A stretch of 64,000 bases of DNA from Axinella damicornis (taxonomy: Eukaryota > Porifera > Demospongiae > Axinellida > Axinellidae), in NCBI GenBank assembly GCA_963931865.1, contig OZ007512.1:9495160-9559159 (forward strand), read 5' to 3'. Both the position numbers and the translations under genes were made by a program. The notes beneath the pieces were generated by a model that searched no databases, had not been told where the DNA came from, and saw only the letters and a program-made list of their open reading frames with translations. Of the stretch, positions 379-20,372 are shown in pieces (positions within the stretch are counted from its first letter, which is position 1; every line of letters starts with the position of its first letter).

Positions 379-1252
379 TACCAGAATGGTGAAGGGACAT
401 TCCCCTATAGTGATTGGCAACTCATTGACTCTCTATCCCAATGGATTACAGATAACAACCTTCAGTTTAATGGTGACAAGTGTAAATATATGCTCATTTC
501 CCGGAAGCGCAGTCATATTCATCGGTCGTCACCTATCTTATTGAATGGTACTCCACTGGATAGAGTTGAGGTGTTCAAGTACCTTGGGATCCACATATCT
601 TCTGATCTCTCGTGGTCCCATCACATACAAACGCTCTGTTCTAAAACTAGGAGGATGCTTGGCCTTCTATACAGAAGATTTTATGCTGATGCTGACCCCT
701 TCACACTGAGACAGTACTACCTCTCATTTATCCGGCCGCACTTGGAATATGGTTGTGAGGTCTGGGACCCACACCTAGTGAAGGATATCAATGCATTAGA
801 GGGAGTTCAGAGATTTGCTAGTAGAATTTGCTCAAAGCAGTGGCGCCCCCAAGTTGAGTATCCAGCAATGTTGGAGTCACTCCATATTCCCCCCCTGGGC
901 TCGAGAAGACTCAAAATGAAAGTATGTCTGCTTCACAGAATGATTCATGGGCAGTCCATTTATCATGATCCTCCATTCGACTACAGAACCGCCACTTTTG
1001 CTTCTCGCTCTGTAAATCCATTATCACTTACCAGGCCATTTGCTAAACATAATTATTACCTGTACTCTTATTTCCCTAGCACTATTTCCTTTTGGAATTC
1101 ACTCCCATATCATATTGCTGCACTTCCTTTGAATTCTTTTAAGTCTGCACTAGATAACTATGTCTAAGGATATGTATCATGTATTAGCATAAATTGCTAT
1201 TGTATGTATCCATGCATTTGCAGAATATATTATAGAAAAAAAAGAAAAAAAA
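379..1252 (+). mobile_element. 5'-truncated non-LTR retrotransposon (LINE) with reverse transcriptase C-terminus
   Basis: An open frame from about 379 to 1167 encodes the end of a LINE reverse transcriptase. It contains NNLQFNGDKCKYM (thumb entry), FKYLGIHISSDLSW, and a C-terminal block with YYLSFIRPHLEYGCEVWDP and LEGVQRFASR, typical of CR1/L2/jockey-type elements. The catalytic YxDD and the endonuclease are missing, so this is a dead 5'-truncated copy. The ORF stops at 1167, followed by about 70 bp of 3' UTR and an A-rich tail at 1236-1252. It sits antisense in the intron after kinase exon 1272-1409. The same intron start at about 8470-8524 in the sister kinase lacks the insertion, so the LINE arrived after the kinase duplication. 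The 3' UTR matches that of the element at 15342-16251. Confidence 0.85.
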
Positions 1253-1271: not shown

Positions 1272-4200
1272 CATGCCATCAGCAATCATAGCAGGTACCA
1301 TGATAGGAAGCACATCAGAGAATGGTAGTTCTTGAGTTGCCATCTCAAATAATAATGTCCCGAATGAGTAGACATCAGAGGATTTGGAGGCACTTTTCCT
1401 TCGCAGAATCTGAAAAACAAGAGGACAATATTTAATAGTTCTGAAAATAAAATTAATGCACTAAACAGTACATTCTATCGCCCCCTACCTCTGGAGCCAT
1501 CCAGGCACATGTACCAACAGCCGACATCCGCCGTGTGGTGTGTTGCAAAGTCTGAGCAAACCCAAGATCACAGATCTGAGAAACAAAGGTTGATGTGTTT
1601 ACACAGAGACTATTATACTCTAGATGTGCCAATATGGGCTTTTATCGATATTCCGATAATCCGATTATACCAACAGATATCTGCCGATACCGATAACCTA
1701 TCTGATACTGTAGGTTCTCGTGTTTGTCTTATACCCTGTGAAGTCTTTTGGCCACAGCTCACTGCAAATAGCAAAATTTGGATCCTCTGACTAAATAGAA
1801 CTCCTAAATTAGCGACTTCTTCCCTTGACCCATCATCCTATAGTTTGTAACAATCACTGCACTGATAATGCTAGTACGTGGTTATGCAATACGCATGCTC
1901 CATTTATTGGCCGAGTTCTCAAATTTTATCGCCAGGAAGGTGATTATCAGCCCAATACTGATATCCAATTATTGGTACATTACTAATACGTACTCCACAC
2001 AGTTCAGTATTAATCATTACCTTTGCTTTCAGTGCAGATGTGAGGACAACTGAAGGGACAAGAGATACTATCCTCATCATGGACGCCAGAACAACACATA
2101 CCCAACAACAAACAATGTCACATTGCAGTTTGGCAGTGAATATATACACAAACTGGGAACTAGATAAACTATTAGGTGCAACTTTCTTACCATTGCTGGA
2201 TTTCAGATCTCTGTGAACAATATCACGCTGGTGAAGGTAGACCATTCCTGTCAACGAACAAGGCAAAGATATACAATGTATGTTATGCTGAACTGGAGGA
2301 GCCTCAATCAATACGTTAAGATTTTAACGTGTGTCTGTGTGTCTGTGAGTGACGGACGTGGGATGTTCGTGGGGCGGGACTAGACTATAGTGACGCACGA
2401 CCTTCGTACTTTAATTTATTTACTGAACCTCGGACTCCACGAAGAATGTTCGAGAACATTGGGCTGGAACCCAGCTAGCTGGGGCTGCAAGCGGATGCAT
2501 GCAATCAGGAAGCAGCAGTCGAAGCGGACGCAATCGGGGAGCAGCAGCCGAAGCGGACGCGATTGGGAGCAGCAGCTGAAGCGGACGTAAGCGGCGAGCG
2601 TGCAGTCGCAATCGGGGAGTGCAGCTGGAAGCGGACGCAAATGGGGAGCAGCAGTTGAAGCGATGCAATCGGGCTCGGGAGCAGCAGCTGATTCGAAGCG
2701 GACACAAGCGGCGGCGAGCAGCACCTGAAGCGGATGCAATCAGGGGGCAAGCAGACGCAATCGGGGAGCAGCAGCTCTGCACAGAGAGCTGTCCAGCGCC
2801 GGATTACTCACGGTAGGCGAACGAGGGGGAAGTAGCTGAGTGAGCGAAGCGAGCGAAGCTACTTGTACGTATTATGCTGTTATGTGTACTATTCCAGGAA
2901 ATGGGCATCAACTGCCATGCCACGCACTGGAATTCAGAGACAAATTGGTTGTGGCTACATTATTCTAGGAAAATACAACAGCTCTATGTATACATTGTTA
3001 CACATAAAATCTTCAACTTCATTGGTCGGTAGCTATATAGAGGGACATATTTCCCGACAGGTATATACGCCTCAAAACCACCCTCTTGTTAGATACAAGG
3101 GGATAATATATACGTACATACAAAGGAATAATTATGATGTGAGTTTGTTGCCATGGTATTTGAACAGTATAGAGTATGTGATTGGTAGCAAAGGAGCTGG
3201 GTGGGGCCTCGGAACGAGGCTATGGTATTTTGCTACAATGGTCTTACATCCCTATCGGTGACCTGCCATAAGTATACCTTCAGCCACTTGTACTGCCCAG
3301 AGTACTATCTGCGACAGAGGAGGCTGGTTGTGCTGTTCATGAATGTAGTCATAGATGGAGCCATTCTCCGCAAATTCTGTGAAGAAAATTATTGAGGCCA
3401 TGCAGTAATTAAGTTCCCTCAGGCATGAAGTTTATATGAGAGACATTTTCAACAGGAAAAAGCGTGAGTCTCACTTTCAAACGTTATTCATGCAAAGCTG
3501 TCATAATGATTGCTGCCTTCCTTGGGTGCTAGTGTTGTAGAGGAAGAAATCGTTTTTTATTTATTTTCAAGGCAATACAACACAAGATTTTCACCAACCA
3601 GGGTCACAATGCGTATCCATGGGGACACCAACTGCATTCTTGTAGACCCAGAAGTTTTTGGCAATATGGCTTCGAATACATTGGGCTCCGAAACTATGTT
3701 AATCAGACCACACCAACAGTCTGCTACATGAAAAGTAGGATGATCACTGCAATTGCCTGCTACACCTCCTTGGGAACTGGGTAACCCGCCAACCTAGCAC
3801 ACTACGCAATCCTTCTACTCTCAACTTTTGATCACGGGCAGACCTGAAACTGTCATGGTCTCGACCTTAAAACTTATTCAATTGTTAATGTTCCGGACTA
3901 CTGTATACTGTCTGGTATCATGCAACTACTCTAGGGTGGTTTATCTCACATACTTTTCAGTTCAAATCAAGCACGGGATGGTCGAAGTTTGGTAATCATT
4001 GGCGTCGGACAATCAGTAATTCACTCTAGTTCTGAGAAAATTTCCAAATGCCTTCTGTGTGCTGATTGTGCTACAGTGTGATACACCGCAGCAATATCGG
4101 GTGATGCTCCCTATAGTATTCATATGTATCCTGATGTTTGCCAAACCTGTGACAACGAAGTGCACATTGCTCTGTGTAGCTGTCCCGTAGTACTGGATGA

Positions 4201-5702
4201 TGGAGGGATGATCCAGTGAGATGAGGATTCTAACCTGAAGAGATTCAGTGCAGAACCTCATTATACAAGACTAATATTCTGTGCAATAATATTACTATAC
4301 ATACAGATCAGAAGATGTACCAGTGATGGTGCATACGACCTTCATAGCAAATGCTGTTGCCATGACAATGACACTGAGTACCGTATTTCCGCAATCAAAT
4401 GACGCGGCTACTATTTATTTCATCTTGCGATTTCTGTGGCTACTAATCGAGGGCAGCCACTAATCAAAGGCGCGTTTCTTAAACTCAGCATGAACAAGGA
4501 AGAATTGGAGTACCGTGTATGCACAAAGAAGCTAGCTTTAAGTTTTGTTTCAGGTCTGTGTTGTACCATCATAATCATCCCGACAAAACAGTAGGAAACT
4601 GCCAATGCCATTACTGTCGCGAAAGATTTCGCCGGTCACATGTCGCTCACCCCTTGTGCCTCGACCTCAGGAAAGCCAACTGTTCTCAGACAGCTCTCAG
4701 GGAAGATGACCAACAATCCATTCTCCTTTCTTCATGCTCACAGCAAAACAGTCACGGTCCTCGAGGGCTAGACAAAGCGCTTCGATCGATCGCCGGCCAT
4801 TCCGAAAACTAGCCATGGCTACTAAACAAGGGTGGCGTTTATTTCGTTCAGCCCTTCTGGAGGTGCGGCTATAATTCGAGGGTGGCCACTAATCAAGGGC
4901 AGCGTTTGATCGCGGAAATACAGGTACGTATTTATGTACAGGCTGTGTTAATAACACACTGCATACATATTGAGTATGTCAGGCTCTGTGTTAAAACAGT
5001 GTAGCTAGTCTCTCTATACAGTAAGCCGTGGACAGTGGTAGTGCTGTCACCATACAACCAAAAAAGCTGAATTTCCTGGGAACCATTACTCCTGCTACGT
5101 ACGTAATAGTCTGAAATTAACATCAGTGAGCCAATTTCAAAATCACATGACAGGAGAAACTAGCAGCTGTAGACACAGACTGGACGGCCACATCCAAGTT
5201 GCTCTGTGATCACACCGTCCAAATGCCGTTCGAGTCTGCTGTGGGACCACTTCACTTTTGAGTATTACGCCATTTCCTGAGTGGACCATGACTATGGGCA
5301 CTCCCCTACGCAGGAGAATCACTCAAAAAGCCGAATACAAAAATTCAAATAGTCCCACCATGGATGCGGAAGGTGTAGATACAGAGAAGCTCTGATGGTT
5401 ACGGTGCCCATCCTGTCAGTATCTTCAGGGGGATGGTTTCGCCTGTGCATGCTATGACTCCTTGCACTCGCCATCTACGTACGTAGGTTATTTGTAGCAG
5501 TAATTCCCGACAAGGGGAGACACATATCGCCATCTTACCTCTCTTTTCTCCAATACCATCATCATCTTGATGGCCACAGTCTTGTTCTTTGAAATCCATC
5601 GTCCCTTTGACACTGTTCCAAATCCACCACTTCCCACCTTCTCCATGAACTCCAGGTCAGAGTACTCAATGTCAATTGGACTGAACGTCTTCAAGCTGCC
5701 CC
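1272..5702 (-). CDS. Second (downstream) TKL/ZAK-like protein kinase domain, seven exons, 3' end outside window
   Basis: Seven exons on the minus strand: 5539-5702, 4147-4234, 3278-3376, 2191-2247, 2021-2049, 1489-1575 and 1272-1409. All have GT..AG borders and joining phases. They encode a glycine loop (VGSGGFGTVSKGRW), the VAIK lysine, the alpha-C stretch (REVRILISLDHPSIIQYYG), a hinge (VVTEFAENGSIYDY), the catalytic loop HRDLKSSN, a metal-binding DLG in place of DFG, and GTCAWMAPE, then KSSDVYSFGTLLFEMAT. Residues needed for catalysis are present. The pattern resembles MLK-family kinases such as ZAK (MAP3K20); the specific orthology is not proven. The last kinase exons (CW..RP region) are not found before base 1. 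The first exon accepts at phase 1, which fits splicing from exon 6219-6264 of the upstream kinase cassette or directly from the mini-exon array. Introns hold a LINE, a MITE and a GCAGCAG repeat element. Confidence 0.85.
2308..2866. repeat. Dispersed element with internal GCAGCAG-type minisatellite, copy 1
   Basis: Begins near TCAATACGTTAAGATTTTAA, followed by a GTGTCTGTGAGTGACGG block. The body consists of degenerate units of about 18-25 bp built on GAAGCGGACGCAATCGGGG and AGCAGCAG. It ends in CTCTGCACAGAGAGCTGTCC and GAAGTAGCTGAGTGAG...GAAGCTACTTG. The same start, body and end occur at 10923-11353, and the body and end at 20874-21200. It lies in the intron between kinase exons 3278-3376 and 2191-2247. 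Long open frames across it are artefacts of the repeat. Confidence 0.7.
4379..4925. mobile_element. MITE with CCGTATTTCCGC inverted ends
   Basis: The left end TACCGTATTTCCGCAATCAA and the right end TTTGATCGCGGAAATACAGG are inverted copies. Inside are mirrored GGCTACTAATCGAGGGCAGCC and GGTGGCCACTAATCAAGGGC words. No transposase is seen; the 97-codon plus frame inside resembles nothing known. It lies in the intron between kinase exons 5539-5702 and 4147-4234. Confidence 0.6.
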
Positions 5703-5857
5703 CTGTAATATCGGACACAAGTGGTGCACTTTCACTTCGGACATTAATTGTAGATCGCACAGTGTCTCACGTCATTTTTACCACAAGATCCTCTCTGAGG
5801 TGCTGATATTCAATGTCTAGGTGTTTAAGTTGCAAATGTAATGCGTCTTTAATAATT

Positions 5858-6110
5858 GATGCTGAGATTCTTTTCCGAAGTGTTTGTGGTGCAGTTTCAC
5901 CGCAAATCGGAAGGCTTCTTCCAAGCTTCTTCCAAGCTTCTTCCAAGAATCGGACGGTTTCTTCCGAACATAATGCAGAAGACTTCTTCGGAAGAGTGCT
6001 ACATAGCTTTGTATGTACGTACCTACGTTTCTGAAAAAATGGTGCAGTGTCGCTTATGGGTCTTCCAGAGCTTCATTTATGCCTACTGTAGTTGCTCTTC
6101 CAGAGCAGCA
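5858..6110. repeat. MITE-like GGAAG-family repeat
   Basis: Opens GATGCTGAGATTCTTTTCCG, contains three tandem CTTCCAAG words and TCTTCCGAACATAATGCAGAAG, and is related in inverse orientation to 1-172 and to 18593-18840. It occupies most of the 500-bp interval between the two kinase cassettes. Confidence 0.5.
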
Positions 6111-6218
6111 TTTGTCGTGTAAATCCTGTGCTGTGACGGAAGGGGTTCCGCAATGCATGCCATTAATTTTTAAACACACATACTGTACAAGGGGAGGAGC
6201 TACCTACTACACACTCAC

Positions 6219-9200
6219 AGTCTCCACTCAGGGCCTTCATGATCTCTGGAAAACGTGGCCTAGCCTGTGTTGCACAAAGACATCAATCAATCACATTTCA
6301 CGTACGTACTGATGAAATTATCAACAAAAGCTGTACGTGTGTAGATTAGTACCTACAGGATTGTGATCAGTATGGTCACATGCACACTCAATCTAATCTT
6401 ACGGTAATTGTAATACGCAGACCGTAAAACAGTAGCTAAGGGGTACGTATGTACTCAGTACTATACATTGAGAAATAATAATGCCCCTATACGTAATAAA
6501 GCCACGCCAGTATGTAAGTTTTATGACCATACGTAAATACCAGTTTGCAGTACATTATGTTTTTAATGCACGAGGGAAATCTAGTTAACGGTCAAGGGCG
6601 AGATAATGCACGAGCCGAAGGTGAGTGCATTATCCACCCGAGACCGTTAACTAGATTGCCTGAGAGGGGCGGCGGCACGCGTATTTACAAATGGGGGGGG
6701 GGGGGGGCAAGATATATTACACACTGCCGGAGACAGTGCATAGAGGCACCTAGTGCTGATCAGTCCCCGCGAAGCGCGGAACAAATTTTTCGCCTTCATT
6801 TTCAGCTATCAGGATGGGCTCTCGTGGCACCTTCGTGCTTTTGCACTGCAAGTTCCAGATGTACGAGGATTGCAGGTCCCGGGGCCGCCGTGCTTCTTCC
6901 TTGCTCAAATTTAGCTCACGAACGTAATACGTATGTACACGGGTATACTAGATTGTGGTCTCGTTCCCAAGTCGTTCGGTTATAGCTAGCCAGCCGCTGG
7001 CTACGTCGATAGCTGGACTTGCGCCAGATCAGCAACTCGATTCGCGTACATCGTACGTACACAAGGTTAGCCGAGTCAGCCTAGTACTAAGTATAGGGCA
7101 GCCGTTGGCTGTTTAATAGTAGCTAGCTGCTAGGAGTTGGGGGGGGGGGGGGGGGGGGGGGGGGGGCTTGCCCCCTTGTGCCGCCACCCCTGCCTGAGTG
7201 CACTAAACCCCGTAATGCACTGCAAACTGGTATCTAAACTACTTAGTGCAACTCACTGACCCGAAACAGCCATTGGTACTTGCTTTATCCAGATAATGCA
7301 CACTAAAGTGCGCATTAAGCGATTTAATGCTCAGTCATGTAATCGATTCTGAGGCATCTAATTCATTGAGGGTCACGTGAGCAGCACTAATGACAGATAC
7401 AGCCACAATGTACCTTTGGATCGTGTTCCCAGCAGCACTTAATCAGGTTGGCTAAACGTGGATCACATGTCTCAGGAATGGTTGGGCGCTGTGTAGTGAT
7501 AAGGTGACAGAAAATCATCACATTCCAGCCACATTGAATTAGTGGTACAGCTTTATTACACTACACTACTGGTAGGGAATTAATTTGGACCAAAAATTGA
7601 AAAATTCCTGAGCACAGTGGGGGACATGGAGAGATTCTGACTGCACCATTATCATTCTAATTTTTGACTGACACAAACGTATAATAATTGTGCTGAAACT
7701 CATCTTTGTGGTGGAGTTATGACCCTAACCCTAATCCTAACCCTAACTTTTGGCCTCCTTGTGTGGGTGGATTTTTTTTTTTCGTTCCGGATCCGCTGGG
7801 AATGAGACAGCCACGTAGAATGTAGCTACATGTGCGCACTAACTGAGACGATCCGAGCTTACCTTGGAGCTGTAAGTACGTGCTGGTGGATGCAATCAGA
7901 GTCTGCTCGGGGTGAAAGTAATACCGGAGTACCATTCTGAAGGGTCAGCTTGCCTTGCCGGTGAGATGCACCGGCTACCAGGCCAGGAGTGCGGTGACTA
8001 TTTACGTCCCATTTACGAATGCCCTACAACGGTTCTGACTATACCATCCGCGATGATCGTGATCGCTACCATGTACTGACCAAACGTAGGATTTTGGTGT
8101 TGAAACTCACCTTGTTGGTGGTGGAGATATGAGCGCTTTTGTCTCGCCGTTGGCCGCCATTGCTCGAGCGCTCCATGTGTGATAATTGGAACGAACTGTC
8201 ACACTTCGCTTGTGCTACCGTTTAACCGCGGCTACCAGGAGTGCGGTCGCCCCTCGGTAACACTCAGACTTTAAATCGTATGAGTGTGAGTAACGGATGT
8301 GGGGGACTAGAGACACCTGCATGACCTTTGTACTTTACTACACCCTTCGAACTTCAAGAAAGTTGAGCACAATTATAACGGAACGGCATGTCTATAGTTT
8401 GAAAGCGCACACAGTCCAGTTGAATAGCAAACAGGGCATTGCTAACGCCTAAGTTAGTATACATCCGCACCAGAATGGTGTAGGGGCATTCTCTAAAGTG
8501 ACTGGTACCATCTTAATCACCCACCTTGCCTTCCATTGTCATAGACGGTACCAGGAGAGGAAGAACATCAGGGAAGGGTAGCTGTTGGGTTGCTATCTCA
8601 AATAAGAGTACTCCGTACGAGTAGACATCACAGAATTTGGAGACTTTCTCTCTTCGTAGCATCTGAGAATTAAAAGGAAGATAATCTCTGAATACACCTT
8701 GTAGGTAGGAAACGTGCAGTTAATGCAGTAAACGACAGATAATTCAGAAGGAACTGCCTTGCAGCAGTGTTCACCGTCTCCTACCTCTGGAGCCATCCAG
8801 GCATATGTACCTACGGCCGTGGTCTGCCGTGCGGTGTGGTCCAAACTCCGGGCAGAGCCAAGATCACAGATCTGAGACAGAAAGGTTGGTTTGTTTACTC
8901 ACGACTAGATTATACTGCCCACGGTTCAGGCTAGAGTCAAGTGTTGCAGTTTGCTAGCCTCGTTCATAGGCCTCCGCCTAGATTTTATCTCTCAGCCTTT
9001 TCTCCACGGCTGCAAGAACAAAATCTGGGCGGAGGTCTCCGGATGAGGCTAGCATAGGTACCTTTGCTTTCAGTGCAGATGTGAGGACAACTGCAGGGGC
9101 AAACAGATATACAATCTTCATCACGGCTACCAGAGTATTGAGCAGCATATACCCGACAATGACTACAGTGCACAACGTTACAGTTTGCAGGTTTGAAGTT

Positions 9201-10633
9201 AGACACTTGTTTAAGAATGCACACAATCTGTATATTTCATCACCTGAACAAGAAATGAAACTTTCTTACCGTTGCTGGACTTCAGATCTCTGTGAATAAT
9301 GTCCCGCTGGTGGAGGTACACCATTCCTGAGAATGTACAAAGAAAAGCCTACATAAAACATATAGGCGAGACACCACATAATGTGAATGAGCTGTCTTCC
9401 ATGTGAAATCATCTGCACATGCTCGGGGGATGTCATATCGATGTTACGTAATGGCTGCATGCATTACAGGTACTGCTTGTAATGTGTGCTTAGAGACAGA
9501 GGTATTATTTGACACAGTTGGGCTAAATGAGTTAACCAGTTAGCTTACGTAAGCAAACACCATTCCTTTGCAAATTAGCTACTCTGCTGTACACTTGTAA
9601 AATTGCCACGGCAACAAAGTCCATATGTCTGGGTTCCTGCAGTTGCATCAGTTGCATGGCTTTGACCTGTCATAATACCTTCAGCTACTTGTGCTGCCCA
9701 GAGTAACATCTGCGACAGAGGAGGCTGCTTCTGCTCTTTGTGAACGTAGTCATAGACGGAACCGCTTTCAGCAAATTCTGTGAAGAAAATAATTATATGA
9801 GCCATAATGCAGTTAGTTCCTATAGTCGCGGTCCCTAGACAGCCCCTCCTGACACAATTCCTACATGCCATTCCGGGAGTTCGAACTATATTGTTCATTG
9901 TTCATAATTTACCCTACCAGGAATGTAACAGAGTTTGTGTGCGAGTTTGTGGGATTGGATCAGTTTTACACTATCTATGGCACTCATACGTAGCAAGATG
10001 TTTGTCTAACCTGTGACAACGAAGTGCACATTGCTCTGCGAGGCTGTCCCATAGTACCGGATGATGGAGGGATGATCCAGTGAGCTGAGGATTCTAACCT
10101 GAACAGATTTGGGGCAAGACGCATATACATTCTGGGTTAGCAAGACAGCATTAAATTGTAGCTAACACTCCATATAATTCTGGAAGTGAAGAAGTCATGG
10201 GACCATTGAGGAACATAATGCTGAGAATTCCTAGACAGCTTAATGGGGGACTGATCCTGGCTGGTCAGGGCGATCTTGAACAAGTTGTAGTCTCCAATAT
10301 AGTCTCTCTTGGTCACTGGGTATAGTCAAACACTTCAAGTGGACACTAAATATAACCTAAAGGGCAAAGGTACGTTTAGACCAAATCACAGAGGTCACAT
10401 GCCCTATAGTATAGAGATCGCTGCCTTGAACCTTGAACCCAGTCCCCCAGCTGTTCAGCTATAGCTTACCTCTCTTTCGTCCAACTCTACTATGGTCTTG
10501 ATGGCCACAGTCTTGTTCTTTGAAATCCATCGTCCCTTTGATACTGTTCCAAACCCGCCACTTCCCACCTTCTCCTTGATCTCCAGGTCAGAGTACTCGA
10601 TGTCAACCAGGCTTAACTTGCTCAAGCTGCTCT
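6219..10633 (-). CDS. First (upstream) TKL/ZAK-like protein kinase domain, nine exons
   Basis: Minus-strand exons: 10470-10633, 10011-10098, 9679-9777, 9270-9326, 9062-9090, 8785-8871, 8525-8662, 7414-7488 and 6219-6264. The first seven have exactly the lengths of the downstream cassette (164, 88, 99, 57, 29, 87, 138). Visible motifs are VGSGGFGTVSKGRW, VAIK, REVRILSSLDHPSIIRYYG, EFAESGSVYDYV, HRDLKSSN, DLG instead of DFG, and GTYAWMAPE. These are followed by CDVYSYGVLLFEIAT, RPTIPETCDPRL, LIKCCWEHDPK and ARPRFPEIMKAL, so the kinase fold is complete. The family look is MLK/ZAK (TKL group), Ser/Thr kinases that act in stress MAPK signalling; the substrate here is unknown. Exon 1 starts with two bases completing a codon, exactly the phase left by mini-exon 12018-12101. 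The last exon can use a GTGAGT donor (phase 1, matching 5702) or read on to a TAA at 6163-6165. Confidence 0.87.
6545..7190. repeat. Composite repeat with two poly-G tracts (copy 1)
   Basis: 6578-6655 is a hairpin-like pair (AATCTAGTTAACGGTC ... GACCGTTAACTAGATT). From GGGGCGGCGGCACG (about 6667) the sequence matches 54684-55075: CACTGCCGGAGACAGTGCATAGA, CAGTCCCCGCGAAGCGCGGA, CAGGATGGGCTCTCGTGGC and AGGTTAGCCGAGTCAGCC. G runs lie at 6693-6707 (15) and 7139-7166 (28). It lies in the intron between kinase exons 7414-7488 and 6219-6264. No coding potential is recognised. Confidence 0.7.
7719..7747. repeat. Interstitial telomere-like (CCCTAA)n tract
   Basis: Four consecutive CCCTAA-type units, one being TCCTAA, read on the plus strand; the reverse is the animal telomere repeat TTAGGG. 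It is surrounded by unique and SINE-like DNA, so it is interstitial rather than a chromosome end. Confidence 0.75.
7980..8270 (-). repeat. SINE-like repeat copy (GGTAGCAC / CTACCAGGAGTGCGGT family)
   Basis: Shares TGATCGTGATCGCTACCATG, GAAACTCACCTTG, TGGTGGAGATATGAGCGC, TTAATTGGAACGAACTG-type and CTACCAGGAGTGCGGT blocks with 13745-14050, 36250-36690 and 58560-59150. On the minus strand the GGTTAAACGGTAGCACAAGC segment looks like a tRNA A-box, and the TTCGTTCCAATTA segment like a weak B-box. A tRNA-derived SINE is an inference. Confidence 0.5.
8953..9053. mobile_element. Foldback MITE (GCTAGCCTCGTT...) next to a splice donor
   Basis: The arms GCTAGCCTCGTTCATAGGCC..CCGCC and GGCGGAGGTCTCCGGATGAGGCTAGC are inverted. 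Its end lies 8 bases from the donor of the 29-nt kinase exon 9062-9090. It is one of many copies of the same palindrome family in the window (14517, 20723, 29923, 39357, 53628). Confidence 0.65.
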
Positions 10634-10922
10634 CTGTAAAATCAGACACACACAAGACCAAGTGTCATACAGAATACTTTGGGGGAACAACTTATACACA
10701 GGTTCTGTATACGTAACTGCTGTTTCTTCATACTGCATTAGGACTGCCATAGCCAGTCTTTAGAGCACTGCTGTTTTAAGTCTACACAGGAGTGGCGGCA
10801 GGGATTCACACAAGCAACTACCAAATCATAACTGTAGAGACACATACTGGCAGACTATACACTGATCATTGTTTTACTTCATTAGCTTTCACTGTACACT
10901 ATAATACTACACACACACACTA

Positions 10923-11353
10923 TCAATACATTAAGATTTTAACGTGTGTCTCTGTGTGTGTGTGTCTGTGAGTGACGGAAGTGGGATGTTCGTGGGGTGG
11001 GACTAGACTAGTGACGCTCGGGGAGCAGCAGCCGAAGCGGATGCGATCGGGAGCAGCAGCTGAAGCGGACTCGGGACGCAAGTGGCAAGCATCATGCAGC
11101 AGCAGCTGAAGCAGGCGCAATCGGGGAGCAGCAGCTACAAGCGGACACAAACCGGAAGCAGCAGATGAAGCGGATGCAATCGGGCCAGGGAGCAGCAGCT
11201 GATACGAAGCGGACGCAAGCGGCGAGCAGCAGCTGAAGCGGACGCAATGGGGAGCAGCAGCTCTGCACAGACAGCTGTCCGGCACTGGATTACTCACAGT
11301 AGGCGAATGAGGGGGAAGTAGCTGAGCGACCGAAGCGAGTGAAGCAACTTGTA
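10923..11353. repeat. GCAGCAG-type minisatellite element, copy 2
   Basis: Starts TCAATACATTAAGATTTTAA and passes through GTGTGTCTGTGAGTGACGGA. It then carries degenerate AGCAGCAGCTGAAGCGGACGC units, the CTCTGCACAGACAGCTGTCC block and a GAAGCAACTTG end, parallel to 2308-2866. It lies in the intron between mini-exon 12018-12101 and kinase exon 10470-10633. Confidence 0.7.
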
Positions 11354-11354
11354 A

Positions 11355-11877
11355 TACCGTAGAGACTGGTTAATAGGCGCATGCGCTTATCGCATGCAGC
11401 AGCAAGAAAGTATGCGCTTATTATGAGTATACGCTTATTAGCGCTATAGCGGGATCCCGATCATGGCAAGCTGACGAAGATGCTGTGAGCGATGTCATCA
11501 TATCTGCAAGGGAGTATGGTCCCGTACTGCATGTCGGTGGCGAGATTCTTCAACTTACACACAAGGACAGAAACGATGGCTGCGCCGTCCATTTTGCCAC
11601 AGTGTGTGCCTTGGGCCGGGAACGGAGAGCGATGGTAGTAGGCTACGTCCCTCGAGAGTTGTCATGTAAGTGTTCGCTATCCAGCGTAGCTTTGAGAGTG
11701 TGCTTCTGCACGATCTGTCGTAGTGTCTCGCTAACTCGCAAACAAAAATCGACATGTCAGCATTTTTTTAGGCGTATGCGCTAATTAATTGATACGTAAG
11801 GACAAGAAGGAAGTATGCGCTTATTTAAAATTATGCGCTTAATAGCTGCATGCGCCTATTAACCGGTCTCTACGGTA
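11355..11877. mobile_element. MITE with 30-bp terminal inverted repeats (TACCGTAGAGAC)
   Basis: The left end TACCGTAGAGACTGGTTAAT plus AGGCGCATGC is the inverse of the right end GCATGCGCCTATTAACCGGT plus CTCTACGGTA, with a single mismatch. Sub-terminal ATGCGCTTAT words are repeated. The interior carries a 99-codon plus frame (11485-11784) with no recognisable domain. It is non-autonomous and intronic. Confidence 0.75.
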
Positions 11878-12017
11878 CATAATCGTAGATAGCAGCACAC
11901 ACTATGTCACTATTTCCGTGCATTTTCTGCGTAATGTATACATCGATCGATCATGCCTTTGCGCAGAGTAACTGACAAACCATGTAAATTATGAGAGCAA
12001 CCACACTCTACACTCAC

Positions 12018-15000
12018 CCGGTGTGCTAACTGGGGAGGCCTGGGGTGGCTGGCGGGAAGGTGGAAGGATGACTGCTCCCCTCTGTGGAGTTAGCAGTGCA
12101 GCTGCAGAAATTAATACATGCAGTTCAACACGCATACATATACCACATCGGGCCCTTCAAACACAAACTAAACATTCTATCATATTTCATGCTTGATGCA
12201 CTGGGAGAGGCTGGAGGAAATATGGAAATAATGTTCGTAGAACAGGAAACTGCTTCTCCCAGAGGACTATAGCCTAGTTTGCATATGGCAGCAAAATAAT
12301 AGGGTAGATACAATTCTATACTTGTTGTTACGTACATCCTTGCAAAAAGCATTAACCGATTAGTTCATGAGACATCCAAAAGGTTAGTGAAATAGTATAT
12401 ACGTATCACATAATATTATGCCAAACCATACCAGCACTCTCGCTGTCAGTAACAGAAGTTGTTGGTGATGATGGTGGGGAAGTAGGGGAAACTGGCTCCC
12501 TCTGGAGGGTTGCTGCTGGGAATGAGATTTAACATCACAGTTGTCACTAACGTACGTAGAAACCTGTGGAATGCACTAATTCCAGATACAATAACCCGCA
12601 GATACTGATCCATAGGATTATTCTGTGATAGCTGGATGCAAATAGCTGCCTACAGACTTGAAAATGGTTCTAACAGCATATAATCCCGACAAATGCCCCC
12701 AAAACAGCTGAAATATGTTGATTTACACACATTATGATCTCATACGTACCAACATCCTCATCAGCAGTGGCAGAAGTTGGTGATGGTGAGGGAGTAGGAG
12801 AAACCGGCTCCCTCTGGAGAGTTGCTGCTGGACAATGAGATTTATTATTGCAGTTGTCACTATGTTGAACTAATACCAGATCAATAATCCCACAGATTTT
12901 ATTGAGGCGAGCCTGAGCGAACCCAACGTAGACCATGTAAGATTTTCCCTATAATATATTTCTATCTGTCATACGTCGCACCATAAACCATTTCCTGCTC
13001 TTATTATTTTGCACGTCCACAATACAACGATCAAGCAACTACGTAGGCATGCAGTTGAATGACTGAAGGAGGCACACGAGTCTCCAGAGTGCTCAGAAGA
13101 CTCCTGGTGGGACCACAAGTATCCAGGGGGGCCCACGGTGGGCCCACAAGTATCCAGGGGGGACCACGGTGGGACCACGAGACCCCCTGGGCTCCCTTGA
13201 GACTCCCGGGGGGGGGGGGGGGGGGGGGTGCCCCCAGGTGTGAATGCCCATGAGCCACTGGGGACCTCATGTGACCCCACGTACGAACAGTCTACTTTCT
13301 CCATGGCGACAACAAAGACAGAGAGCACTTGCGGACCTTCTTGTTCAATGGCTAGAGCAGTACAGGATTGTATTTTGTTGCCTGACTCACTGTACCTGTG
13401 TTGGAAGTCACTCGTTATGTGCCCAAAGCTCAGGCTTCAGTGTTCAGTGGCTACAGCGATGGGGACTATAGCACATGTCAAGAAAGATCGTGAGAGTGTT
13501 TTCATGCCATCTGTACACGTCCTGCAAATGAACATGCGTGCTGGACCAGTGGAATGTACATATGTGTGTGCTTTTTGTATACTTTGTAGCCGAGGTTGTG
13601 ATATGCTCATATCACTTTCTGATTACGCATGCAACAGCTCCTTGTTCTGCAGGTGAACTCGATCAGGCTCGCTCCACAATGTCGTACATTTGATTCATAA
13701 ATTTGTGTACGTACAGTAAATAATTAATATATAATCAAACCTCATAGTTCGCAGGAAAGGCCTACAGAGATTCCGACTACACCGTCGTGATCGCTATCAT
13801 GCAGTTAGACAAACGCATAACAATTGTGATGAAACTCACTTTGGTGGTGGAGATACAAGCGCTTTTGTCATGCCATGCTGGTGAAGTTGCTAGCACTGTG
13901 ATCCTCCTTTTGGACGCCATTGCTAACTCGATCGACTCGGGCATGGTCCCCACGTGACATGTGCGTTAATTGGAATGAACTGCAATACCTAGCTTGCGCG
14001 ACCAATGATTTGCAAAGCGCCTACCAGGAGTGTGGTTGCCCCTCGAACAGATTTAAAGAACGCTCATATAATACCCTCAATGAATATTGAAATAGCTATA
14101 CAAAACAAACCCCATACCAGTATCCTTGCCGTCAGTGCCAGAAGTTGATTGAGCAGTAGAAGAGACTGGCTCCCTCTGGAGAGTTGCTGCTGGGCAATGA
14201 GATTCATCGTTGTCAAACGAAGCTGGTTCATGAATAAAATAATCACGATGGCAGTAGGAATTAGGAATTCCACTTGCCGTTCACGGTCAAGGACAGTTGC
14301 ACTTTTTAGTCCACTGCTGTTTCTGTAGTTGGACGCTGCTTATCATTATGGGCTCCTGGCACTAGTTAATAGCGTAGGTTTGTACAAAAGCCATTGGCCA
14401 ACTCAATAAAGCTTAAGTGAGTTGGCCCCGATGTTGTGATGCTAAGCTGGCTGCTCACTCTCGTTATGGGCTCCTGCTAACATCAGATACGATAATCCCA
14501 CGGATACTGACCCAATATATCCTCGTTCCCAGGCCTACCCCGTTTTTCTGTTCTTCGGCTTCCGATACACGGATGCGGGGATGCGGAAGGGCGGCGAAAA
14601 ACACGGAAGGCCTGGTATCATTCATCACGTCAGTGACGTCAGGTGGACACAAGGGTGGACGTAGAGGGGGGGGGGGGGGGGGGGTAGTCGTTTCAGCAGA
14701 TCCTGAAGGCTGTTCATCATCCAGTCGGCTCGGTTAGACGATCTACACAACTTCGTCGGCGTTTTTTAAACTTATTTGCAGTTGGGCCACACCCCCCTAA
14801 GTCCACTTGACATAAAGCACATGATGAATAATACTAGGCCTTCCGCGTTTTTCGCCGCCCTTCCACATCCGTGTATTATTGTCAACGGAAACCGAAGAAC
14901 AAAAAAACGGGGTAGGCCTGGGAACGAGGCTAGACTCAATAGATGTAGTTGTCTACACACTTGAAAAAGTTCACAAACGTCCCACACATTATCAGTAGGT

Positions 15001-16273
15001 ACATACATACATCCCATACCAGCATCCACTCCATCAGTGACAGAAGCAGGTGGTGTTGGTTGTAGAGAGGAGGAAATTGGCTTCCTCTGGAGCGATGCAG
15101 CTGGCGGATGAAGGCAACCAACATTTAAGAATGTCTATACAGTTATCAAATAACTATAGAGAGGGCATCTAGCTTCTATGAGTAGTTTCAAAGTTCAAAT
15201 GTTCAAACTTTTGCACCAGCTTCCCAAGAAAATATCCCACTATACAGTAAACTTGTAGATTATAACCACAGTTCATAGTTCAGAACAATTTGTATCAATA
15301 TTGCGTAACCTCTGTAATGAACCACGGTTTGCTGGACATAGGGAAAATATCCCACTATACAGTAAACTTGTAGCAACAAAAAATGGCGGAAGGACGGCAA
15401 ATTCGCGTCTGTGTCTTGGAAGGCCACTATGTTGAGCTCGCTGATGCTGGAACTCCTATTTCGGTATGTTTGCAGATGCAACAGCTGAAACTTTCCTTGG
15501 GGAAAGCACAGTGGTCTACAAGACAGACCTGCGGCGGGTTTTCTGTGTCTTTCTTTTGGCCCACATCGCCAGCCAAGAGCGCGAGGACCAGTATCAAGAA
15601 ACGCAAGAGACGTCGAAAGAGAACGAAGCGGACTGAAGTAGGTACGCAGTGCCTCGCGGCCAATCCTGATGCTCCTACGAGTGGAGGCTTGCCAAGTAGT
15701 GAGCATGTTCAGGACAGTGAACCTGTTCTAATTAATGATCACCCCGCAAGTAGCAACTCGAAAGCAGACAGTGTTAATGAAGAATCCTTTTCTCCAGAAC
15801 TCGACCTGGCAGCCTTCAGGGATGTGGTGTTTGAAGAACAGGAAAGTAACCCAGGTGTGAGATACATGAGTGAATCAGGAGAAACAACTTGGACACCTGT
15901 AGTGAATCGAAGGAATAGGAGAAGGGCTCGACTTGCTGACCCAGGTTCTGACAGTAGTGACCAGAGGAATGAATTGCAGTCTACCATCAAGTCTGCTCGA
16001 GATGTGACCTACCAATGCCGTGAAGGAGTGCCTGGTTTGAAGATACGGAAGGGCTGTACATCAAGCAGCATCTCCTGGGTCCCAATTGCTGCCACACCAG
16101 TTGCCTCGCGAACTAGATCCAGAGTTAGACCACAATAATTATGTAATTTATGGGTACATGCCTCGTATTAGCGCATGATGCATATGCTATTGTGTGTATC
16201 CTTGCAGTATTGCAGAATTATTATAGAAAAAAAATAAAAAATAAAAAAAAATAGGGGGACCCATTGTTTCAAG

Positions 16274-16315
<42 letters not shown>

Positions 16316-16540
16316 GTCACCTGACTCTTTCCTGGGAGTGACAGAGGTAGTTGAGGAAGTGTCAGTAGAGCTCACTGGCTGCTCTGGGAGAGCTGCTGCT
16401 GCTGCACATGAAGTAACAGGAGGAGAGATAGTGACTAGCAGGAGCTTATGAGCATGGCAAAGTTATGGGCTCCGGTGACTAGCCATGAATGGTAACTATG
16501 GACTGTTTCTCAAATGATACCTGGCCAGCGTTTCTAATTG

Positions 16541-16574
<34 letters not shown>

Positions 16575-16726
16575 GGGAGGGGGAAGGGGGGAGGGAAGGG
16601 GGGGAAAAGGGGAAGGGGGGAGTTTGTGAGACAATCACTCACCTGACTCTTTCCTAGGAGTGACAGAGGTAGTTGAGGAAGTGTCAGTAGAGCTCACTGG
16701 CTGCTCTGCGACAGCTGCTGCTGCTG
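12018..16726 (-). CDS. Array of seven homologous Ser/Thr/Pro-rich mini-exons (linker of the Death-kinase gene)
   Basis: Minus-strand exons, 5' to 3': 16643-16726, 16321-16401, 15020-15100, 14118-14189, 12750-12827, 12432-12515 and 12018-12101 (84, 81, 81, 72, 78, 84, 84 nt). Each starts after CAG, is symmetric phase 1-1, and ends in G before GTATGG, GTGAG, GTGAC or GTACG. They encode related peptides beginning A-A-T-L-Q-R-E-P-V-S and continuing with Ser, Thr and Pro, for example PAATLQREP-type and TSVTDSESAG. No fold is expected; such segments serve as flexible, possibly phosphorylated or glycosylated spacers. Any number of these exons can be skipped without shifting the frame. The array begins in phase with Death exon 17068-17352 and ends in phase with kinase exon 10470-10633. 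Introns hold a LINE-derived ORF, foldbacks and poly-G. Confidence 0.75.
13060..13228. repeat. Short tandem repeat ending in a 21-bp poly-G run
   Basis: Units built on CAAGTATCCAGGGGGG(A/C)CCACGGTGGGACCAC repeat between about 13110 and 13190. An uninterrupted G run follows at 13208-13228. This is intronic and non-coding; apparent open frames are low complexity. Confidence 0.6.
13745..14050 (-). repeat. SINE-like repeat copy
   Basis: Contains CGCAGGAAAGGCCTACAGAG, ACCGTCGTGATCGCTATCAT, AACTCACTTTGGTGGTGGAG and CTACCAGGAGTGTGGTTGCC, shared with 36250-36690 and 58560-59150. It is intronic between mini-exons 14118-14189 and 12750-12827. Confidence 0.55.
14517..14937. mobile_element. Long foldback element with about 139-bp arms and a 19-bp poly-G run
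   Basis: The left arm (TCGTTCCCAGGCCTACCCCG to about 14655) and right arm (about 14795 to CGGGGTAGGCCTGGGAACGA) are inverted copies. They share TTTTTCGCCGCCCTTCC and the CGGAAGGCCT junction. The spacer carries G19 at 14666-14684. The ends belong to the same TAGCCTCGTTCCCAGG family as the smaller palindromes in the window. It is intronic. Confidence 0.75.
15342..16251 (+). mobile_element. HAL1-like non-autonomous LINE derivative: one ORF, LINE 3' UTR and A-rich tail
   Basis: The 3' part (about 16160-16251: CGTATTAGCGCATGATGC, then TGCTATTGTGTGTATCCTTG, GCAGAATTATTATAG and an A-rich tail) is clearly homologous to the 3' UTR and tail of the LINE at 1177-1252. The body, however, encodes a different ORF (15383-16138) and no reverse transcriptase. 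It therefore looks like an ORF1-plus-3'-end derivative moved by the LINE machinery, or an unrelated transcript carrying a LINE tail. A 31-bp segment (GAAAATATCCCACTATACAG...) occurs twice upstream, at 15229 and 15343. It is intronic and antisense to the host gene. Confidence 0.6.
15383..16138 (+). CDS. 251-codon ORF inside the LINE-tailed element, possibly LINE ORF1-like
   Basis: An intact frame starts MAEGRQIRVCVLEGHYVELA, ten bases after a duplicated 31-bp motif. It has a strongly basic patch near residue 75 (KKRKRRRKRTKR), an acidic and Ser-rich middle, a WTPVVNRRNRRRAR segment near residue 170, and ends in SRTRSRVRPQ. I see no RRM, zinc knuckle or esterase motif. Basic patches would suit nucleic-acid binding, as in LINE ORF1 proteins, but this is inference from context and composition. 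Intactness across 251 codons suggests a young copy. Confidence 0.5.
   Translation: MAEGRQIRVCVLEGHYVELADAGTPISVCLQMQQLKLSLGKAQWSTRQTCGGFSVSFFWPTSPAKSARTSIKKRKRRRKRTKRTEVGTQCLAANPDAPTSGGLPSSEHVQDSEPVLINDHPASSNSKADSVNEESFSPELDLAAFRDVVFEEQESNPGVRYMSESGETTWTPVVNRRNRRRARLADPGSDSSDQRNELQSTIKSARDVTYQCREGVPGLKIRKGCTSSSISWVPIAATPVASRTRSRVRPQ
16277..16314. repeat. Poly-G run of 38 bases just downstream of a splice donor
   Basis: The run is uninterrupted G on the plus strand. For the minus-strand gene it is a C38 tract beginning 6 bases after the end of mini-exon 16321-16401 (donor GTGACA). The G-rich strand could form G-quadruplex or triplex structure. Confidence 0.85.
16543..16620. repeat. Poly-G run of 31 bases followed by G-rich AGGG/AAGG tract
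   Basis: G31 at 16543-16573, then GGGAGGG/GGGAAGGGGG words to about 16620. It is intronic between mini-exons 16643-16726 and 16321-16401, about 20 bases from the first one. Confidence 0.8.
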
Positions 16727-17067
16727 CTGCACATGAAATAACAGAATGAGAGATGGTGACTAGCAGGAGCTTATACATGTGCGATAACTTATGCACACTA
16801 TGAAATTGCTTCACCTATGCAAAAGTTAAAAGTCTTGAGTGGACGTTCAGTAAGCATGATTAGCGTTACTCACGTGACCCTCAACAAATCAGATGCCTCA
16901 GAATCGATCACATGACTGAACATTAAACTGCTTAATGCAAACTTAAGTGTGCATTATCTCTTTTCGAAGACCAACGGCTGTTTCGGGTCAGTTAGTTTAG
17001 ATACCAGTTTTTGTGAAGGGCATACTTCAAGGACACAATGGACCATGTGCAGGAAGTACATACGTAC

Positions 17068-20000
17068 CGTTGAGGTACTTTTCTCTCACTAGCTGCAACA
17101 CTTCGTGATACTTTCCAGAGCTACCACCTATCATTCTGCCGAACAGAGCATTGGCCACCAGCATCCAGGTGGGAGCAGGGTGGTGGTTGCGCCATTCCTC
17201 CAACATGGCCTGCCTGCACTGTGTGCCAGTGGAGTGCTTCTCCTTGATCTTGCTCCGTATTGAGGCAGGCACATCCAGGAGGTAGCCCAGACTATCCCAC
17301 TCCGCCACTTCTTCCAGTACACTACACAGGTTGGCGACCGTCAGTGTGGCCTCTGAGTGGAAGCAAGTCACATGCTACAGATAAAGCATTAAACAGTAAC
17401 AAACAAAGCCTAATACGTACAAAGGAACCTGCCAGTGGATAGACTTTTCAGGCTTATAATTCCAGTGCTCCTGAATACTAGTTGAGTGATGACAGCTTGC
17501 AGGTCCTGGGCCTAATTAACGGGGGGTGGTGATATGACATCACATCACTGAACTTGCTTGTAAATGGCATTGTTCAAATTTGTTTTGCTGGAAGTTCAAA
17601 CTAGTTTTGCTGGAAGTTCAAACTTGTTTTGCGGGAAGGGCAAACGGCAAATGCCTTAAACCACCCTTTAACCGAAAAACAAAGTGCTTTAGTGGGATTC
17701 AAACACAGGGAATTGAGCACTAGAGACTCTGACTCTACCAATGCACCACTGCATACCCTCATGGGAGGGTACAAAGATTTGAACTCTGAACTTTATGTGG
17801 TTAAAAATGCTCACATTATAAGGGTGCCTCTCGCAATTACATATATACTTACCAAAAATACATACCGTATAGCGGGTTACTTTCGTGGGTGGAAATTTTC
17901 GTGAAATGCTGGATACGGTTGTCAGAATTGATTGTCGTTGTTGTAATTTTCGTGGTACCTGCGTTTCCGTTATCATTGCAGATGACGTAATATCAAAATT
18001 AGTACACGTGGCCGAAAAACAGACATTGCGCTTCTACGTGAGTGTGACGCTACTTCGTCAGTAAAAGACATGTGGGAGGCCAATGTTGGAGAAGAACTAA
18101 CATGCTAGTGCGAGAATGGCAACCATATTGATCCATTAGCCGTTCCGAGAGTTACTGACCTCGTTTTTCGGCGCCTGGGTCCAATTCGATCTCAACGTGA
18201 GGGACTGCTGGTGATAGAACTTAGAAGATCCTTCCAATCAAGGACACTGTCAACAGGACGCAGTCACGCAGGTACAGCTACGAAGAGCCGTACAGTGTAC
18301 TTGAACGACGGCACCTAGCTACGTGTTGCACAGTGCTATGAAAATTTCGTGGGTAGAAAATTTTGTGACTTTGATGAGCTACGAAAATAACGAAAATTGG
18401 AACCTCACGAAGTATAACCCACTATACAGTACACTGCATGACTGCACTGAATGGGCTGTTCAGACATCACCAAGTTTCATTGCAGATGCTACAAAATTAA
18501 TTTGTCTAACATCTGGTGATTTTGTTGTCTCAGAACATTACACCATACTCCTGAGACACCACCCACCCATACAGTACACACGTTAAAAATTGATGCCGAG
18601 ATTCGGAAATATTTCCATCGCTGGTCCGCTTTCCGTTACAAACACGAACATGGAAGACCTAAACACAGCTCTGGAATATCCGCAAGCGAAGTTGCACTGT
18701 TATTTCAGTGACTTAGGTACGTACACTGCCATAGTTCTTCGGAAGAAGTCTTCCATGTCTTCTGCAGAAACCTTCCGATTCTCAGAGGAAGCCTTCCAGT
18801 TTTCAGAAATGAATGTCGGAAAAGCGTTCTGAATCTCAGTATCAATTTTAATGACACACATTGTACCTGGTTGTGGTCGGAAGTGTTTTTTCACTCTTTC
18901 CAGTGCTGTACGGTCCTGTGCGCGATAGAGACCCCCAGCAAGAGTTTGCCATGACGCATTAGGCACAGTAGTGATGAAATACTGGAGCATCTCAGGCCGG
19001 CTTCCACGCTTATTGGATGACACTCCTAGGTCATAACCTAGGGAGTTCCAGTCTTCAACACCTTCAACAGCAGTGGTGACATTGGGGAGGGTGAAGGTAG
19101 GGTCTGTAGAGGGAGGGGACAGAGATAAAACAGGGAACTCAAGGAGTACTTCAGTATACTATGTGTTACGTGTAGTTTCAGCAATCAATCAACCTCAGCC
19201 TAGTTTCCAGACCTTCTCACCCCAGCATTTGCCACTTGCAGTACAAACACATACAGAGGAAGGCCTGTCACATGCAGTGATGTATACCTGGATGCGTGGA
19301 GGAGTGGCACATTCTTTCTGTAACAGCTCTGGGCCGGCTTTCTGGACCCAAGAAAAGTCACCAAGTCTGCCTGATGTTGACTGCTTAGTCGCTCAGTGAC
19401 TCGTGGCTGTGATAGATAGCGCACCTCATTTACTTGTGGTTTTTCCAAGAAATGAGCCACTCCTCCACATGTCCACCTAACTAACGTCCATGTACATCAT
19501 ACATCACTGCATGTGACGAGTTTTAGCAGGCCTTCCCCCACGCTAGTACTGCAAGCGACAAACAGTGGAGTGAGAAGCCTTGGGAACGAGGCTAAGCACG
19601 GACCACTTCCAGTATTGAAGCAAAGCGTGCTAGAGTTAGCTCGTGTACTGGCATTGGATACTAAATAACATGTGCCGTATATTCTTCCTACAATCCTACC
19701 AACTTTCAGTCAATTCCAGTACACTGCAAAAGCTGTGTGAATTAGGCTACTTGGTGTAGCATACCAAATGCCAAGACAACATACCCTGGATTGGCTCTGC
19801 ATTGCCACGGATTTTGTCTGCTGTATGCCTACATAGCGGATCAAGTCCATATGTATAGAGATCAAGTTGCTGTATGAGCCTCCTCCATGAGGGAGCTGGA
19901 TTGGTGGTAAACCACCAGTCCACCAAGACTCTCCTGTGAGTGTTAGGAAGATACCGGACCTTAATTTCATCACGTTTTGAAGAGGGCACACATAGGCACC

Positions 20001-20122
20001 AACACAGTCTACTCAAATCCAATTCCTTCACAGCCTCTGTAACCGCCTCTGGTGTCAGTGGAGCAGCTGCAGTCAGGGAGAACAGAGCAATGAAGTTATC
20101 ACTGTTCAAAGCATCAACAGAT
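17068..20122 (-). CDS. Three consecutive Death-domain exons (N-terminal part of the Death-kinase gene)
   Basis: Minus-strand exons: 19785-20122, 18867-19103 and 17068-17352, joined at phase 1. Exon 1 encodes an EAVKELDLSRLCWCLCVP helix pair, SSKRDEI, then VLVDWWFTTNPAPSWRRLIQQL. Exon 2 has VEDWNSLGYDLGVSSNKRG, then MLQYFITTVPNASWQTLAGGL, with a shortened middle. Exon 3 has AEWDSLGYLLDVPASIRSKI, then AMLEEWRNHHPAPTWMLVANAL. The pattern (W..LG..L.V....I, ..L..W....PAP.W..L...L) is that of the Death fold. Death domains recruit partners by Death-Death contacts in innate immune and apoptosis signalling. The three differ strongly, so they are an old series. Exon 3 runs in phase into the mini-exon array. 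The first exon needs two bases from an upstream exon that I could not find. Confidence 0.75.
17655..17765 (-). repeat. tRNA-derived sequence, probably a SINE head
   Basis: On the minus strand, GTGGTGCATTGGTAGAGTC resembles a tRNA A-box, and GTGTTTGAATCCC about 35 bases later resembles a B-box. The arms do not fold into a convincing cloverleaf by eye, so a functional tRNA is unlikely. Confidence 0.4.
17863..18431. mobile_element. MITE with TACCGTATAGCGGGTTA-type ends
   Basis: The left end TACCGTATAGCGGGTTACTT and the right end GAAGTATAACCCACTATACAGTA are imperfect inverted repeats. Sub-terminal TTTCGTGGGTGGAAATTTTCGTG recurs as AATTTCGTGGGTAGAAAATTTTG near the other end. No coding sequence is seen. 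It is intronic between the second and third Death exons. Confidence 0.6.
18593..18840. repeat. MITE-like GGAAG-family repeat, near-complete copy
   Basis: Opens GATGCCGAGATTCGGAAATA and closes GCGTTCTGAATCTCAGTATC, an inverted pair. Inside are TCTTCGGAAGAAGTCTTCC and CAGAAACCTTCCGATTCTCAG. Related copies lie at 1-172 and 5858-6110. It ends 26 bases from the donor of Death exon 18867-19103. Confidence 0.55.
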
Positions 20123-20156: not shown

Positions 20157-20372
20157 TTAAGGTAGCACATACCCCTTTACGTTAGGTTACCTTTAACCGT
20201 CGGGGGCCCCCGACGGTTAAGGTAGCACATACCCCTTTACGTTAGGTTACCTTTAACCGTCGGGGGCCCCCGACAGTTAAGGTAGCACATAACCCTTTAC
20301 GTTAGCACATAACCCTTTACGTTAGGTTACCTTTAAAGGTAACCTAACGTAAAGGGGTATGTGCTACCTTAA
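20157..20372. mobile_element. TTAA-flanked MITE (piggyBac-type target) built of palindromic 60-bp units
   Basis: It is bounded by TTAA at 20157-20160 and 20369-20372. The first 40 bases (TTAAGGTAGCACATACCCCT...) are the exact inverse of the last 40. Inside is a 60-bp unit repeated twice plus a partial third, each carrying the palindrome TAACCGTCGGGGGCCCCCGA. TTAA duplication is the hallmark of piggyBac-type transposition. There is no transposase. It sits 35 bases upstream of Death exon 19785-20122. Confidence 0.8.

Follow-up and report, generated by a model that had tools for sequence, protein, structure and literature searches.

A predicted sponge multigene family that combines three Death domains with paired ZAK-like kinases

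The stretch of Axinella damicornis DNA analyzed here (the window, 64,000 nucleotides, corresponding to bases 9495160-9559159 of contig 8, or C8, in a genome of 226 Mb in 120 contigs; window base 1 is C8:9495160) carries on its minus strand a series of 26 exons, which we predict to belong to one protein-coding gene of an expanded family. The product would contain three Death domains, a linker, and two ZAK-like kinases, and we estimate the probability of this reading at roughly 75%. AG acceptors and GT donors were found at all the exon borders proposed in a preliminary description of the window, and the joined exons form a frame of 956 codons without a stop, confirming its claim that they combine without a phase conflict. 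In this frame, three Death-like exons (D1-D3) come first, followed by seven mini-exons, nine exons of kinase 1 (K1, exons k1 to k9), and seven exons of kinase 2 (K2). The Death exons and the seven mini-exons end at phase 1, the mini-exons being 1-1; K1 is entered at phase 1 at 10633 and K2 at phase 1 at 5702, all as described before. Since the same exon order recurs elsewhere in the genome, this layout is not due to chance. The described span of 20122 to 1272 holds for the exons themselves and not for their completeness, as the last two exons of K2 are located outside the window, and the 5' border of D1 may be either 20122 or 20101.

The last exon of K1 (k9, 6264-6219) is able to donate at phase 1 (GACT before the border, GTGAGT after it), and the phase-1 acceptor needed for the previously proposed joining to the K2 exon k1 (5539..5702) is present, with no in-frame ATG past the last upstream in-frame stop. 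We read this junction at eight places, namely in the window, in its partial tandem duplicate, and at six loci picked for a match to k7 closely followed by a match to k1. In all eight, k9 of kinase 1 reads without a stop up to a GTGAGT donor of phase 1, and the next k1 allows a phase-1 acceptor to be placed; these junctions represent two k9 sequence types and three acceptor contexts. In seven of the eight, no in-frame ATG occurs in the stretch from the last in-frame stop to the motif of kinase 2. On the other side, the k9 exons of K2, of its duplicate, and of one single-kinase paralog that was read contain a stop codon. Genome-wide patterns for the two types of k9, allowing up to three mismatches (no matches in the backward-read control), detected the donor type at nine places, each with the next same-strand k1 at 123-813 bp; eight of these nine exons had served in the design of the pattern, making the count mostly circular, and C8:9398281 is the only independent positive. 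The terminal type, whose pattern is blind to stop codons (three of the matched exons were read and contain one), was detected at 25 places, none of which has a same-strand k1 within 10 kb. Of these, 22 were not used for the design, and none of the 22 has a k1 nearby. By the same genome-wide pattern, the donor-type k9 was not found at any single-kinase place. We give no p-value because the paralogs are not independent. As the donor type was detected only at double-kinase places and the terminal type never has another kinase start within 10 kb, one spliced gene is favored, and the assignment of K1 and K2 to one gene has good support from comparison of the sequences.

The same junctions bear on the possibility of two genes, one with three Death domains and a single kinase that would end past 6219 (with the tail CECVVGSSSPCTVCVFKN and a stop near 6163), and a separate K2 gene after it. 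An in-frame stop indeed follows the K1 donor here, the two kinases are tandem copies with 192 of 259 identical positions (74%), and at one of the eight junctions, L058, an in-frame ATG precedes kinase 2. However, the tail that would be coded if the donor were unused differs between paralogs in both length and sequence, whereas the donor is kept; thus, the read-through tail required for an end near 6163, where use of a poly(A) site would, according to the preliminary description, split the gene, is not conserved. Together with the lack of an in-frame ATG at the other seven junctions and the confinement of stops to the terminal k9, this makes two genes unlikely, and the comparison favors the prediction of a single gene.

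Initially, this gene could have been regarded as unique, an idea that was dropped after genome-wide searches revealed many paralogs. Six-frame searches of the same genome were conducted with the Death region, K1, exon k1, and exon k7; all family counts are lower bounds because the lists hold only the best candidates. A Death triplet was linked to a kinase if a k1 or k7 match followed it within 30 kb on that strand, with no further D1 in between. The k9-distance comparison included 67 of 132 Death matches, 62 of 62 k1 matches, and 43 of 68 k7 matches, and the triplet comparison included one further Death piece, 32 of 62 k1 matches, and 40 of 68 k7 matches, weaker matches and other contigs being left out in both. 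At least 22 triplets have the D1-D2-D3 order, and 18 of the 22 are followed by family kinase exons: eight by two kinase sets, nine by k1 and k7 once each, and one by k1 only. In C8:9413393, D3 is found in two pieces, one of them with a stop. Downstream of a triplet are 26 of the 62 k1 matches (16 of the best 20); the others are weaker or lack a detected triplet.

On sequence grounds, the first three exons of the gene are divergent Death domains. D2 (18867..19103, phase 1-1) and D3 (17068..17352, phase 1-1) match the Pfam family Death (PF00531) with E-values of 0.077 and 0.015, respectively, when searched exon by exon, and D1 (19785..20122, 3' phase 1) gives no match. Twelve D exons from four loci, among them open frames of D1 that align with D2, D3, and the paralogs, can be aligned over the Death core. 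Among these 12 paralogous exons, five match PF00531 at E-values up to 1, the best being 3.9e-5. A profile of the 12 exons, searched against PDB, found FADD in the first 11 of 34 rows (best E-value 7.1e-5), and an early view that D1 is not a Death domain, based on the silence of Pfam, was dropped after this search; the profile also holds D2 and D3. Next in the list are Protection of telomeres 1 (0.002), probably a chance match, and the Death domains of PIDD and Fas (0.05 to 0.8) among unrelated chains. For the Death array as a whole, a comparison with 5.8 billion public proteins gave 5234 candidates that share words with it and have 0.55-1.75 times its length, none of which scored at E<=1.

Between the Death array and K1, the mini-exons encode a linker of 189 residues, 48% of them Pro, Ser, or Thr, with 13 SP/TP pairs; it is built of repeated mini-exons and appears, from its composition, to be rich in phosphorylation sites. 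All seven are open frames (16643..16726, 16321..16401, 15020..15100, 14118..14189, 12750..12827, 12432..12515, and 12018..12101), and the last has homologues in the paralogous loci. Mini-exons 1 and 2 are nearly identical and lie beside long poly-C runs, and this near identity suggests that an exon of the linker was duplicated recently. On the opposite strand, the intron that separates mini-exons 2 and 3 contains an open reading frame (ORF) of 251 amino acids (15383-16138, plus strand), possibly from a mobile element, with no Pfam match.

Both kinases are ZAK/MLTK-like with intact motifs, as judged from their predicted sequences. The exons of K1, all on open frames, are k1 (10470..10633, with the glycine-rich loop and VAIK), k2 (10011..10098), k3 (9679..9777), k4 (9270..9326, HRDLKSSN), k5 (9062..9090), k6 (8785..8871, DLG and APE), k7 (8525..8662, also a query of the genome search), k8 (7414..7488), and the donor-type k9. 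In K2, k1 is followed by k2 (4147..4234), k3 (3278..3376), k4 (2191..2247, HRDLKSSN), k5 (2021..2049), k6 (1489..1575, DLG and APE), and k7 (1272..1409), and GSGGFG, VAIK, HRDLKSSN, DLG, and APE are present in both kinases. The joined protein matches PF07714 in two stretches (E-value 7.1e-114), and the best PDB match is MLT/ZAK for both K1 (1.8e-62) and K2 (1.7e-59). IRAK is absent from the best 60 of 2768 PDB rows for K1 and from the 15 rows listed for K2. In the alignment of K1 to ZAK, Thr (in VVTEF) is found where ZAK has Thr. K1 alone has 3364 matches in public proteins, and the 120 listed are at most 42% identical, with no close relative named among them. The whole joined protein was abandoned as a query since it returned generic kinases, perhaps because words of the Pro/Ser/Thr-rich linker swamped the search; one of its matches, P0115, has one Death domain and one kinase and looks IRAK-like. 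The best single-frame matches of K1 in this genome are two uninterrupted kinase frames with DFG, L013 (C1:19693830, minus strand) and L014 (C1:19767431, plus strand), 46% and 48% identical to K1. An ORF of 225 amino acids in the k7-k8 intron of K2 (490-1167, plus strand) looks like the end of a reverse transcriptase of a long interspersed nuclear element, with no Pfam match.

K2 is truncated by the window edge. In the adjoining sequence, it continues with k8 (C8:9494998-9494924) and the terminal k9 (C8:9494568-9494524), the gene ending 0.6 kb beyond the window on the same strand. The terminal exon reads ARPTFREIQLTLST and then TGA; therefore, the protein stops directly past the second kinase domain. 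From D1 onward it has about 995 codons.

Various observations weigh against the prediction of one complete gene, in addition to the circularity of the donor count and the ATG of L058. The acceptors of the eight junctions were placed by eye, and the pyrimidine tract is poor in those of L054 and L058. Neither k9 pattern fitted the double locus C8:9724481, and the one for the terminal type had no match in kinase 2 of C8:12515515 and 12539759. Among the 22 triplets, four have no k1 or k7 match within 30 kb; for two of these four, kinase matches are found at 32-37 kb (C8:9863125) and a possible terminal k9 about 10 kb on (C8:9076338). At the double locus C8:12256117, kinase 1 lacks a detected k1, and the triplet C8:10219626 matches through stop codons. 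As many as 36 of the 62 k1 matches, including only four of the best 20, are beyond the reach of any triplet, and no triplet was detected for a ninth kinase pair (C8:12467638). The Pfam scores of the single Death exons in the window are below the cut-off. The presence of a partial duplicate downstream shows that the locus is in flux, and finally, no start codon was found, there being no in-frame ATG before D1 in the window.

This last point would be explained if the gene were a decaying copy of a real family whose start was lost to the repeats upstream of D1, a reading compatible with the one-gene structure. Palindromic repeats with GGGGGCCCCC cores and GTAACCTAACGTAAAGGGG arms, recognized by eye at 20160-20370, immediately precede D1, at a place where one might expect a start exon. 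Paralog C8:12567624 has an in-frame stop and after it an ATG in the D1 frame (MWSAVYSVNFIALF), and this ATG was considered as the start of the family. It is present in only one of the four D1 exons read, and it may be intronic because three of the four have CAG at the position matching 20101, a candidate true acceptor of D1; it was not retained, and its absence here says little. An island of 50 bases upstream of D1 (20509-20461, minus strand) has an 84% identical counterpart in C8:12567624, at 1.7 kb upstream of D1; we do not claim the island as exon 1, as it has an ATG with 11 codons but a weak donor. Three candidate start exons running from an ATG to a donor were not convincing, and a search for upstream exons that the gene shares with three paralogs gave best translated matches that mostly resemble dispersed repeats (180 rows ranked, the best 15 inspected). 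This copy may have lost its start. However, none of the 26 exons is interrupted, their splice sites are proper, and the comparison with the recent duplicate, based on few changes, gives low ratios of nonsynonymous to synonymous substitution rates (dN/dS). The duplicate (L009-L010, C8:9486231-9477647) lies downstream of the gene and includes K1 exons k4-k9 and a complete K2, in pieces that are 84.6-96.0% identical, and it lacks k1-k3 and the Death exons; it could be a fragment, could serve as an alternative 3' half, or could reflect a problem of the assembly. dN/dS is 0.19 for K2 (eight nonsynonymous and 12 synonymous changes, dS 0.07) and 0.087 for k4-k9 of K1 (two and seven changes, dS 0.071); between K1 and K2 it is 0.415, and all three figures rest on few changes. 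We consider a decaying copy quite unlikely.

Least probable of all is one gene with alternative kinase cassettes, in which mini-exon 7 would be spliced to K1 or, skipping it, to K2, with the downstream duplicate as a possible third choice: both kinases retain their motifs, and the K1 block can be skipped in frame because its phases are 1-1 and its length, 783 nt, is divisible by three, but nine exons would have to be skipped together, and the kept K1 donor would have no purpose if K1 and K2 were never joined.

Given a single gene with three Death domains and two kinases, the simplest model is one in which the Death array would assemble with itself or with other Death proteins, and such assembly would bring the two kinases close together for activation by trans-phosphorylation. 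The output could be of the MAP3K type, directed to a MAPK or NF-kB-type stress or immune response, as that of IRAK, which gives MAPK or NF-kB-type output after assembly of the Myddosome. The double form probably arose by duplication of the kinase half, the terminal exon of the first copy turning into an internal one. An immune or stress role would agree with the clustering and the frequent duplication but is not proved by them. Tentatively, and with more doubt than conviction, we suggest a lineage-specific, fast-duplicating family of immune kinases that became IRAK-like independently, by placing a triple Death array on a ZAK-type MAP3K, and in which a second active kinase was fused via this terminal-to-internal exon. 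In this view, the phase symmetry of the kinase block might also give each gene a choice among kinase 1, kinase 2, and the two together. Death-scaffolded kinases such as IRAK and RIPK are at the core of animal innate immunity. If the suggestion is true, a large family of IRAK-like layout that uses another kinase type, with two intact kinases side by side, would demonstrate that such wiring can be built more than once. Moreover, single- and double-kinase genes would form a natural series within one genome, along which the origin of the second kinase domain could be traced exon by exon.

Elsewhere in the window, two related sets of frames (47182-53069 and 60614-62560, both on the plus strand) have Chlam_PMP repeats and a right-handed beta helix (PF02415, PF13229), here in an animal genome. 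An ORF of 456 amino acids (25907-27277, plus strand) has a WSC domain (PF01822, E-value 1.4e-8).

No title or abstract start among the open-access literature matches listed, at most 25 per search, describes a triple-Death or Death-plus-tandem-kinase family. The initial impression was of an arrangement not known from any described family; it belongs to a multigene family and is not a single oddity. Among known proteins, ZAK (MLTK, MAP3K20) is the best solved-structure match of both kinase domains. ZAK has a leucine zipper and a SAM domain after the kinase, whereas here neither is present, K1 running into K2 and K2 stopping past its domain. Neither ZAK nor the plant tandem kinase proteins are known to have a Death domain. 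The latter (Yr15, Pm24, and Pm57) have two kinase domains in one resistance protein and are the nearest paired-kinase analogue; Yr15 and Pm24 are described as kinase-pseudokinase proteins, whereas both domains here keep the catalytic motifs.

The combination of Death domains and a TKL kinase was earlier said to recall IRAK and RIP kinases. The likeness to RIPK1 includes the DLG motif, which RIPK1 also carries. However, RIPK1 has the kinase first and a single C-terminal Death domain, and this order is reversed here. The kinase domain of IRAK has a Tyr gatekeeper. IRAK proteins have a Death domain, a ProST linker, and a kinase in this order (PMC3498205). The predicted N-terminal Death domains, Pro/Ser/Thr-rich linker, and TKL kinases of the sponge protein follow this order of the IRAK/Pelle family. 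Thus the comparison with IRAK holds for the layout, with three Death domains instead of one and two kinases, and does not extend to the kinase type, which is ZAK-like, from another branch of the TKL kinases, and not IRAK-like.

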